Positions 1-3,516 of a DNA stretch of 50,338 nucleotides are shown one piece after another. The stretch covers positions 8,498-58,835 of IMG/VR virus record IMGVR_UViG_3300030104_003325; one strand, given 5' to 3'. The stretch is from a virus. The first letter of the stretch is position 1; each line of letters opens with the position of its first letter. The translations under genes and the position numbers were made by a program. Under the pieces are notes generated by a model. That model did not search any database. It was given only the letters and a program-made list of their open reading frames with translations, and had not been told where the DNA came from.

Positions 1-609
1 TTTGTATGCTTTTTTGTTTATATTCCATACACTTCTCTTACGTCTTGTTGGTTCTTTAATTGCATCAACATCAAAATAATAGTTCTGGTTCTTACTTAAC
101 AAGAACAAATATTCATGTGATTTAGTACATCTATCACGCACACTTTCAGGCATTGGATTACCCTTACTCCATATAATATCCTGCCTTAAGTACCATCCAT
201 CTGCTCTTAATGCAAATGCTAACATCCAAGGTATTCCGATTAAATCTTTCTCTTTGTATCCCTTTAGTTTATTACCTCGTCTTGCACATTTGTCTGGTAA
301 GTCTTGCTTACTGTTACTCACAGTTTGTTGTACTAATGCCTGACCTTTTCCAGGTCTATAGTTATAATAACTATCACCTATATTCAACCATAAAGTACCA
401 TCATCAGTAAGACAATCTCTTACTAATCTAAACACTTTAACCATCTCTTGAATATATTCTTCTGGTGTTTGTTCCTGACCTATTTGATTATCTTCATCAC
501 CATAATTGCGTAATCCGTAATAAGGTGGGGATGTAATACAACATCTTGCTTTATCAATAAATGCTGGTAATGTGTCTCTACAATCACCATATAATATGGT
601 ATCTTTCAT
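1..609 (-). CDS. DNA methyltransferase, N4-cytosine/N6-adenine type (partial)
   Basis: The first 203 residues of an S-adenosylmethionine-dependent DNA amino-methyltransferase; the 3' part lies beyond the window edge. Motif IV is plain: TSPPY followed by YGLRNYG at about residues 28-39. This is the usual beginning of the N4/N6 methylase family in which the catalytic block comes first and the AdoMet-binding block (FxGxG-type) follows near the C-terminus, here not visible. Further family-like blocks are DGTLWLNIGDSY (about residue 70) and a region around IIWSKGNPMP. The ATG at 609 overlaps the stop of the upstream small gene as ATGA, so the two are probably translationally coupled. It is the last visible gene of a cluster with a Dam-like methylase and an endonuclease-like gene. 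The target sequence cannot be read from the protein. Confidence 0.9.
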   Translation of the reverse strand, partial: MKDTILYGDCRDTLPAFIDKARCCITSPPYYGLRNYGDEDNQIGQEQTPEEYIQEMVKVFRLVRDCLTDDGTLWLNIGDSYYNYRPGKGQALVQQTVSNSKQDLPDKCARRGNKLKGYKEKDLIGIPWMLAFALRADGWYLRQDIIWSKGNPMPESVRDRCTKSHEYLFLLSKNQNYYFDVDAIKEPTRRKRSVWNINKKAYK

Positions 610-788
610 CTGTTTAGTACAACAATTAAACGAACAATTATGCCTGTTATTAACACATAGTATGACCACATTACAAGCATACCAAATTTATTATAGGCAC
701 TACCACGTTTGAAATTAGTAACTGGTGGAATATTTCTCTTCCACACATCACTAGAAAAATATTCTTTTGGATGGATTTGTCTAGTCAT
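606..788 (-). CDS. small membrane protein, hypothetical
   Basis: A 60-residue protein. The N-terminal half is polar and basic; residues about 36-57 form one hydrophobic helix (LVMWSYYVLITGIIVRLIVVL), so a single-pass membrane protein is likely. It starts 3 bp after the helicase stop and its own stop overlaps the methyltransferase start, which ties it to the same transcript. No family recognised. Confidence 0.6.
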   Translation of the reverse strand: MTRQIHPKEYFSSDVWKRNIPPVTNFKRGSAYNKFGMLVMWSYYVLITGIIVRLIVVLNR

Positions 789-791
789 AAG

Positions 792-2093
792 TTACACATA
801 GGATAGTGGTGGAATACCTTCTACGAAGATATAATTTACAATAGATTGTAATCTCTTCTCTATTCTTTGACCATACTTACCAGTCATAGGTACAACAATC
901 TTACCACAACTTTTCTGGTATAAATCAAACTTACCTGCTGGAATTACACCACTATCTACACTCTTTCTGTCCTCATTATGTACTCTAATTACTCTACCTA
1001 TTGTCTGTGCCATTTCTATAGTTGGTAAGTTTCTAAGCATAACTGAATGAGTTAAACCTGGAACATTTATGCCTTCTGATAGTATAGAATAGTGGAAGAT
1101 TACGAACTTCTTAGTATCATCTTTACCCCACTCTGTAAGAGTATTAAAGAACTCTTCTCTACCTACTTTCTTCTTATTGATATATGCACCATGCTTAGAT
1201 GTTATGTGCATTATATCATAACCCTCACGATATATCCAGTCCTGAGTATCAGTTTGTGATAGCATATTCCACATAATTCTTGTTGTTGGAGCAGACACAA
1301 GTATCTTAGGTGCATGTATATCCATACTCCTAATTATGTCCTTTAAGTTATCACCATCAACCTCATGTGCGTTCTGTTTAGTTCTCTCTCTATCGGTCTC
1401 AAATGTTATTACTTTAGGTGGTAAGATTGTACCACTATCTAATAACTCTTGTGCCTGTGTTTGCTCTAATACATTACCATATACTTGAGCATTATTCATA
1501 CCACGCTCTGCACTTACACTCTTCTTACTACGTGAAACTCTTGGTGTAGCAGTAAAGAAGTAACGTGAAATACCAGATGCAGCAACTCTCTTTATCTGTT
1601 GAAAGAATGATTTACCAGTGCCATTATGTGCTTCATCAAAATAGATAGTGTCAATATTAACACCACTATCTAATACTCTGTGAAGAGAGTGGTAGGTAGT
1701 AAAGATTAACTTATGACCTAAAGTATTATTGTGATATACACTCAACTTGTGTGAATTAGTAGTGCTAAAGTGATGAGTTTCACCACTATGTACATGGATT
1801 ACTTTAGCATTAGTAACCTTACTTAGAAACTCTTCTGATAACTGATTAGCAAGCAATATACGTGGTGCAACTATAACAATAGTCTTGAACATACCAGTAG
1901 TTGCTGATAATCTTCTGACGCAATCTGCTATCATAATATATGTTTTACCACCACCAGTAGGCACAATTATTTGACCACTAGGGGCAATGTTCATAGCATA
2001 ATAAGCACGTTGCTGGTGTGGTCTTAATGTGTCTGTCAAATGTAACCTCATCAATGAATTAATAATAAACGATTTTGAATGGTTTGTCAGCAA
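792..2093 (-). CDS. superfamily 2 DEAD/DEAH-box helicase
   Basis: Up to 433 residues with the SF2 helicase/ATPase motifs in order: a Q-like LRPHQQRA, Walker A PTGGGKT, Walker B DEAH, motif III FTATPR, and motif VI QTIGRVIR in a second RecA-like domain. The fold resembles phage and restriction-type (Res subunit) helicases, which translocate on duplex DNA with ATP. The longest frame begins with TTG at 2093, overlapping the Dam-like gene by 7 bp; an ATG at 2051 (MRLHL) directly before the LRPHQ block is an equally plausible start and neither has a strong ribosome binding site. Its position between two DNA methyltransferase genes suggests work on modified or restricted DNA, but a UvsW-like recombination role is also possible. 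Confidence 0.85.
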   Translation of the reverse strand: MLTNHSKSFIINSLMRLHLTDTLRPHQQRAYYAMNIAPSGQIIVPTGGGKTYIMIADCVRRLSATTGMFKTIVIVAPRILLANQLSEEFLSKVTNAKVIHVHSGETHHFSTTNSHKLSVYHNNTLGHKLIFTTYHSLHRVLDSGVNIDTIYFDEAHNGTGKSFFQQIKRVAASGISRYFFTATPRVSRSKKSVSAERGMNNAQVYGNVLEQTQAQELLDSGTILPPKVITFETDRERTKQNAHEVDGDNLKDIIRSMDIHAPKILVSAPTTRIMWNMLSQTDTQDWIYREGYDIMHITSKHGAYINKKKVGREEFFNTLTEWGKDDTKKFVIFHYSILSEGINVPGLTHSVMLRNLPTIEMAQTIGRVIRVHNEDRKSVDSGVIPAGKFDLYQKSCGKIVVPMTGKYGQRIEKRLQSIVNYIFVEGIPPLSYV

Positions 2094-2905
2094 ACTGTAG
2101 ACAGTTCCTTGACTGTCACATTGCTAATGTATAAATGATTGACCTTAGATCCTGAGTGGTCTTTCCCTTTACCGAAGTTCTGAGAATACTTAAATCCCAT
2201 TACTTCAATATTACAATCAGAGTATGCTTTTTGAATATAATCACAGTCGCTATGTATAAACAACCAAGGCACATCTATTTGTGTTAATACTGATGCTAAT
2301 CTGTCGTGTAATCCATCACTACCATCGCCTGTAGAGTATCCTAAACGCTCTAAGTATGGTGGATCAATGAATAAGAAATCACCGTCATTGTAGGTCATTG
2401 TTCTTATTAACTTAACTGCATCTTCATTGTATATTTCACAGTTATTAAGGAAAGTATGATGACTAGGTGATAGATTACAAGCAAACTTTTTATAATGTCC
2501 AAATGGTACATTGAACTCACCCTTAGCATTGTATCTTTCCATACCTGAAAAGCATAACTGTCTAACAATAATATATGATATTGCTAGATCATATGGTTCG
2601 GGATCATCCTCGTTAATTATATCTCTAGCATCATAATATCTCTTCTCAAGATCATCATGCTGTAGTGTTTTAATATACTCTACATCCTTTAATAGTATAT
2701 TGAAGTAACTCTTATCTCTAATAATATTATAGAGGTTAATAACATTCTTATTACAATCATTCAGTATTGATGATACATTAGCATGAAAAGATACTGCTGC
2801 ACCACCACAGAAAGGTTCAATAATCCTCTTTGCTGATGTTATATAAGGTTGTATTAGTGGTAACTCTCTACTCTTACCACCTTGATACTTAACAACTGGT
2901 TTCAT
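2087..2905 (-). CDS. Dam-like (D12 class) N6-adenine DNA methyltransferase
   Basis: 272 residues, the usual length for DpnM/Dam-type enzymes. It transfers a methyl group from AdoMet to N6 of adenine. Visible motifs: KYQGGKSRELP at the N-terminus and EPFCGGAAVSF (AdoMet pocket, the FxGxG position) around residue 31-41, and catalytic DPPY within FIDPPYLERLGYS around residue 180. The start overlaps the end of the endonuclease-like gene by 4 bp (ATGA). Many members of the family methylate GATC, but the class also contains other specificities. GATC itself is frequent in the surrounding DNA, including inside this cluster, so there is no sign of GATC avoidance. Confidence 0.92.
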   Translation of the reverse strand: MKPVVKYQGGKSRELPLIQPYITSAKRIIEPFCGGAAVSFHANVSSILNDCNKNVINLYNIIRDKSYFNILLKDVEYIKTLQHDDLEKRYYDARDIINEDDPEPYDLAISYIIVRQLCFSGMERYNAKGEFNVPFGHYKKFACNLSPSHHTFLNNCEIYNEDAVKLIRTMTYNDGDFLFIDPPYLERLGYSTGDGSDGLHDRLASVLTQIDVPWLFIHSDCDYIQKAYSDCNIEVMGFKYSQNFGKGKDHSGSKVNHLYISNVTVKELSTVC

Positions 2906-3453
2906 ATACCTTTAGTTTCAAGAACTGGTGCAATTACTTCTTTCATGTATGTAAAGAACTCTTCCTCAGTAAATGGTGCATCAATCTTACTAAGTAACCA
3001 TTTAACACCATAAACATTTAATCCCTTCTTATTATACTTGGTAATGTACTTTTGTGCAATAGTTGATACAACTGGAATAAAATACCCTGCTTCATCTGCA
3101 CCAACTTCATCCTTTATTTCCAATATCTTCTTATTAGATGCCTTAACCTTCTCACTATCAAAGTTTAAGTTACACTTACTTTCAAGATAATATGTAAGAT
3201 CAGCACGAAATAAGTGATCTATTTGTCTATCTTCACCATTAACTTCTACCATATTATTATCTTCAATTAAATTCATAGCAGAACTATCACTAATTACTTT
3301 ATTCCAAAAATCCTCTAATCTTGTGCCTACGGTTATCTGTATTCCATGCCTAGAACAACGCTCAAGACCACATGCCTCAAGTATATAAGACTGTGATGGT
3401 TTTCCTTGAATACTCTCAATCAAAGGAAGTAGATTGTCGTCTAGGTAACTCAT
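2902..3453 (-). CDS. putative type II restriction endonuclease, PD-(D/E)xK-like
   Basis: 183 residues with no obvious cyanophage core homologue that I recognise. The centre reads RQIDHLFRADLTYYLESKCN followed by LNFDSEKVKA: an acidic D before a hydrophobic strand, then ExK in a beta strand and a following N. This spacing matches the PD-(D/E)xK nuclease core, and the ELKxNLxLDxEK-like stretch is seen in several type II restriction enzymes. It is the first gene of a tight cluster whose next gene (4-bp overlap) is an adenine methylase, as expected for a restriction-modification pair. The function is inferred from the motif and context; catalytic activity and recognition site are unknown. Confidence 0.62.
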   Translation of the reverse strand: MSYLDDNLLPLIESIQGKPSQSYILEACGLERCSRHGIQITVGTRLEDFWNKVISDSSAMNLIEDNNMVEVNGEDRQIDHLFRADLTYYLESKCNLNFDSEKVKASNKKILEIKDEVGADEAGYFIPVVSTIAQKYITKYNKKGLNVYGVKWLLSKIDAPFTEEEFFTYMKEVIAPVLETKGI

Positions 3454-3481: not shown

Positions 3482-3490
3482 ATTATAGCA
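3482..3490 (-). promoter_or_regulatory. extended -10 promoter for the methylase/endonuclease cluster
   Basis: On the minus strand TGC is followed by TATAAT (3487..3482), an extended -10 box without a clear -35. It lies just after a terminator hairpin and about 30 bp before the endonuclease start, so it would give the cluster its own host-type (early) transcription. A TATAAATC sequence a few bases further in could also serve. Confidence 0.5.
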
Positions 3491-3491
3491 T

Positions 3492-3516
3492 AAAAAAAGC
3501 ACCCCGAAAGGTGCTT
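3492..3516 (-). terminator. intrinsic terminator
   Basis: A 7-bp stem AAGCACC/GGTGCTT (3497-3503 and 3510-3516) with a 6-nt loop; read on the minus strand it is followed by a run of T. It would end transcripts from the small gene at 3539-3694 and insulate the endonuclease cluster. Confidence 0.85.

Follow-up and report, generated by a model that had tools for sequence, protein, structure and literature searches.

Bacteria ordinarily use restriction-modification (R-M) to fight off phages. The Type II systems of the DpnII/MboI kind, which act at GATC, offer the nearest comparison for the locus described here: its D12 N6-adenine methylase is closest to the DpnII methylase among solved structures, and a candidate nuclease gene of predicted PD-(D/E)XK fold adjoins the methylase gene, as in Type II systems generally. 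Unlike DpnII/MboI, the pair is carried by a lytic phage, its GATC specificity is a prediction, and its nuclease has no above-cut-off match to any Pfam restriction family, the DpnII type included, or to a PDB chain; no useful Pfam match links it to the DpnII/MboI endonuclease, of which the R subunit of a DpnII-type system is a homologue. Chlorella virus R-M systems, for example CviAII of PBCV-1, likewise have both restriction and modification enzymes encoded by a virus (references listed in PMC4081073), but these are viruses of eukaryotic algae, and the passages considered here describe no exchange of nucleases at a fixed methylase. In jumbo phages, Mom-REase fusions have been proposed to combine modification with a REase-fold domain that attacks host or superinfecting DNA (PMC7824862); there the nuclease is fused with a different modification enzyme, whereas here we find separate genes and an ordinary Dam. 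A jumbo-phage Dam and a REase-fold protein from the same paper have consecutive accessions (AUZ94846.1 and AUZ94847.1) and may be neighbours. Phage methylases are common, and the D12 Dam studied here resembles the orphan Dam of T4 and the N6A-methylases of cyanophages; those are regarded as solitary, whereas a nuclease candidate adjoins this one. Searches of the open-licence literature returned no report of the nuclease-Dam pair.

The window, by which we mean the whole stretch of 50,338 nucleotides analysed, comes from a viral record of 58.8 kb. The presence of psbD, phoH and T4-like structural genes bears out the cyanomyovirus origin proposed in a first-pass annotation. At the left end of the window lie the five closely consecutive ORFs which that annotation had described as overlapping or near one another; all are on the minus strand, which it had left unsaid. 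In order, they are the 183-aa ORF, the D12 methylase, an SF2 helicase, a 60-aa ORF and a beta-class methylase, with overlaps of 4 bp between the nuclease stop and the Dam start and 7 bp between Dam and helicase:

2902..3453, minus strand: candidate restriction endonuclease, 183 aa, phrog_26553, predicted PD-(D/E)XK fold; residues invariant in the alignment of relatives are E47, Q77-x-D79-H80 and E91-S-K93
2087..2905, minus strand: Dam-type D12 m6A methyltransferase of 272 aa, probably GATC-specific
792..2093, minus strand: SF2 helicase, 433 aa, TTG start, a common cyanomyovirus gene
606..788, minus strand: 60-aa ORF with one hydrophobic stretch
1..609, minus strand: beta-class DNA methyltransferase, N-terminal part (TSPPY...DPFMGSGTT), a common cyanophage methylase
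3482..3490, minus strand: extended -10-like site TGCTATAAT upstream of the nuclease gene, read directly
3497..3516, minus strand: terminator-like hairpin AAGCACCT-TTCG-GGGTGCTT followed by a T-run, upstream of the module

A promoter and a terminator had been placed ahead of the cluster. Both motifs can be read in the DNA, but the -10 site has no statistical support and the terminator scan gave 2 candidates against 1.5 in shuffled sequence, which is no excess.

The same annotation had treated the five genes as a single unit, a view that does not hold up for the helicase and the second methylase. The helicase matches ResIII at 8e-17, and its relatives occur in 418 phage records, nearly all of them named cyanophages. 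We rejected it as a Type III Res subunit, a helicase that carries a C-terminal nuclease and is encoded beside Mod, on the basis of this wide distribution and because the 433-aa protein has no nuclease domain match. The beta-class methylase matches PF01555 at 2e-26 and has close relatives in dozens of cyanophage records, in keeping with the earlier remark that methyltransferases are common in such phages. An N6A-methylase and a helicase are among the genes common to many cyanophages (PMC3037559). Since the helicase and the second methylase are widespread in cyanophages, neither is specific to the module, and both probably stand outside it. The methylase gene, with a likely ATG start near 609, breaks off at the window edge and runs into a scaffold N-gap, on the far side of which its C-terminal part (DPFMGSGTT) resumes; the N-run that splits it, at about 8485-8500 of L018, is an assembly gap. 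The 60-aa ORF has no Pfam family match. This leaves the nuclease candidate (2902-3453) and Dam (2087-2905), which we consider likely to make up a Type II-like R-M module carried by the phage.

The 183-aa protein matches phrog_26553, annotated as "unknown function", and had no meaningful match among Pfam, NCBIfam or PADLOC families; a sequence-profile search of PDB chains gave nothing. Homologues were likewise absent from a genome-contig collection, from plasmids and from 390 cyanobacterial genomes, the cyanobacterial search having been run without a positive control. We aligned the window protein with relatives found in viral contigs, 34 in all and 42-83% identical. Residues D79, E91 and K93, together with E47, were invariant across the 35 sequences; the IDH...ESK motif noticed at first pass is genuine. 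An AlphaFold model built with the 34 relatives (pLDDT 93, pTM 0.88) has an alpha-beta-beta-beta-alpha-beta core (helix 35-56, strands 68-92, helix 100-117, strand 121-125), which is the element order of PD-(D/E)XK enzymes. The PDB structures it resembles most in fold are PD-(D/E)XK nucleases, including Card1, NucS/EndoMS, BamHI, BstYI and HindIII; these matches agree with the modelled core but are weak to marginal (E 1e-3 to 0.5). With the core fold and the conserved catalytic D...(D/E)xK both present, the fold and active site are well supported as predictions, and we infer that this candidate is an active nuclease.

The neighbouring Dam matches PF02086 at 1e-39 (137 bits against a cut-off of 22) and TIGR00571 at 153.7 (cut-off 114.85), and it carries the DPPY motif, all of which place it in the D12 class, and within that in the Dam subfamily. 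Besides the DpnII methylase, its closest solved relatives include E. coli Dam and T4 Dam. The RYN..GEFNVPFG recognition hairpin of E. coli Dam, whose residues read GATC in that enzyme, is kept in the phage protein. Judged from this hairpin, GATC is the likely specificity of the phage Dam and probably the site of the module.

As the first-pass annotation had suspected, the pair is rare in cultured cyanophages, and the nuclease does travel with the D12 methylase. Among 50,697 phage records, the nuclease occurs in six, from two species only, the cyanophages S-CAM8 and S-WAM2. Both also carry Dam, which at 43% identity or above was otherwise found only in three enterobacterial T4-like phages: the records with such a Dam are the six with the nuclease and six from these three phages. 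In viral contigs retrieved with the nuclease as seed, Dam follows it in most loci and precedes it in a few (L051, L059 and L060, with linkage kept); in L047 the two are about 8 kb apart. A search seeded with Dam gave 51 nuclease matches within 3 kb among the best 80 of 150 loci. When these 80 loci were clustered at 90% identity, the nuclease lay within 3 kb of Dam in 25 of 37 clusters, and in 22 of those 25 it was directly upstream, with a 4-5 bp overlap or a gap of at most 34 bp. Another nuclease candidate stood directly upstream in four more of the 37, and eight had none. These fractions are upper estimates, with the linkage frequency biased upward, because most of the Dams behind the query were themselves linked to the nuclease and because only the best 80 of 150 loci were retained. 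In L215, L221, L224, L230, L238 and L254, the SF2 helicase directly follows Dam and no nuclease candidate was seen upstream; in L215 and L230 the side upstream of Dam is cut off.

The association could instead be incidental, the PD-(D/E)XK protein being a host-DNA-degradation, repair or recombination nuclease that works independently of Dam methylation, with Dam as a separate anti-restriction gene. We regard this as unlikely, although several lineages keep the nuclease, catalytic residues intact, with no Dam on the contig, as it would predict. Conservation of the gene in phages lacking any methyltransferase had been named at first pass as something that would refute an R-M function. Relatives do occur on contigs of 60-73 kb with no detectable D12 or N6/N4 methylase, which goes part of the way, but these contigs are fragmentary. 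Such Dam-less loci are also the chief difficulty for the R-M reading itself. The Dam-less label requires at least four changes on a 37-row tree, and L039 and L040 match L047 around the position of its Dam, with no Dam gene there. Since several Dam-less contigs end no more than about 5 kb from the nuclease, and 60-73 kb is perhaps a third of the genome, Dam may lie elsewhere in these genomes; if it is truly absent, something else must keep the nuclease from harming the phage. Two diverged nuclease copies lie close together on the 6.4-kb contig L007 (1355-1915 and 2198-2752), which has no Dam, and a possible PD-(D/E)XK-like ORF (HIVDVLL...LISLKYQ) is found at 1407-1895 of L012, near a Dam-less nuclease copy.

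Site counts also bear on Dam-independence, since a Type II nuclease would not be expected to persist without its methylase unless its sites are avoided. GATC is not avoided in the window (221 observed against 233 expected), as had been noted, nor in three Dam-less nuclease contigs (observed/expected 0.91-1.11), and the latter result would suit a nuclease indifferent to Dam. We dropped CCGG as a candidate site: it is missing from most nuclease contigs, but also mostly from 12 control cyanomyovirus genomes chosen as nuclease-free. Indeed, CCGG is missing in most cyanomyovirus sequences examined (the window and L066-L095), nuclease or not. TTAA is missing from 50 kb of S-ShM2 and CTAG from 50 kb of S-SM2, and GTAC is strongly avoided in S-WAM2; such missing or avoided sites may result from restriction by host or phage. 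Against an incidental association stand the proximity of nuclease and Dam genes in most lineages, whichever comes first, and the exchange of other nucleases into the same place beside Dam.

This exchange goes beyond the original observation and is clearest in two loci, L202 and L203. Their upstream flanks are 92.9% identical over 2323 bp, they are 89.5% identical over 1394 bp from the Dam start, and their Dam proteins are 97.7% identical, yet the gene between these flanks is wholly different: exactly the nuclease gene has been exchanged, with the stop/start overlap with Dam kept. The replacement protein of L202 type was modelled by AlphaFold at pLDDT 85 with the PD-(D/E)XK element order, and the model's fold matches are the R.BspD6I small subunit, Card1 and XisH. 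L202 may be an assembly chimera, but the pairing of this gene type with Dam recurs in independent contigs: each of the eight loci found (that of L257 and seven more) has the gene directly upstream of Dam. Other occupants of this position are a distant relative of the window nuclease in L260 and L265 (hhalign probability 81%, E 1.2e-5), an HNH gene in L272 and L273, and in L261 a gene with weak PD-(D/E)XK likeness. The three enterobacterial phages, STML-198, KP179 and KP182, have a third type of gene ahead of their Dam relative; this gene is PD-(D/E)XK-like and Hjc/Cas4-like, overlaps Dam and shares the same six records with it. The STML-198 pair adjoins denB and ndd, T4 host-shutoff genes, a setting that would suit a nuclease acting without Dam. 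These relatives are best read as holding the methylase constant while the nuclease can be exchanged.

A slot with changing occupants could also be one into which free-standing homing-type nucleases insert, in which case the nuclease would be a selfish gene rather than a restriction enzyme. We consider this quite improbable. It has in its favour the HNH nuclease of L272 and L273, the coincidence of the L202/L203 exchange boundaries with gene ends, and the occurrence of homing nucleases in cyanophages (PMC3037559). In L202/L203, though, a whole gene was exchanged rather than inserted and the overlap was preserved, and the nuclease remains with Dam across diverse phages. Very improbable, finally, is a modification-dependent nuclease that attacks methylated host or rival DNA, which could be retained without Dam but would, wherever Dam is linked, expose the phage's own DNA to cutting.

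We thus favour an R-M module, in which Dam would mark replicating phage DNA with N6-methyladenine, GATC being the most likely site, and the PD-(D/E)XK nuclease would cut DNA left unmarked, be it the host chromosome, co-infecting phages or both. A near full-length D12 methylase is present in only about 20 of 300 Prochlorococcus-family genomes (matches at E 1e-13 or better). Given so few D12 methylases, host GATC is probably mostly unmethylated, although methylases of other classes could methylate it; if the hosts do lack the mark, the nuclease could be aimed at their chromosomes. The Salmonella and Klebsiella hosts of the enterobacterial phages are themselves Dam-methylated, so that a cutter of unmethylated GATC would spare them; there the target would be other phages, or the specificity differs.

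We give an even chance to the wider proposition that lytic T4-like marine phages maintain an R-M locus in which Dam stays fixed while unrelated or very diverged nuclease families are swapped, changing the weapon used against host chromosomes or rival phages. The exchange of nucleases at a near-identical methylase would provide a natural series of enzymes that have to tolerate the same mark, and S-CAM8 and S-WAM2 are sequenced isolates that carry the pair. If the R-M reading is true, this locus would be how some lytic cyanophages tell their own DNA from that of the host, or exclude their rivals.
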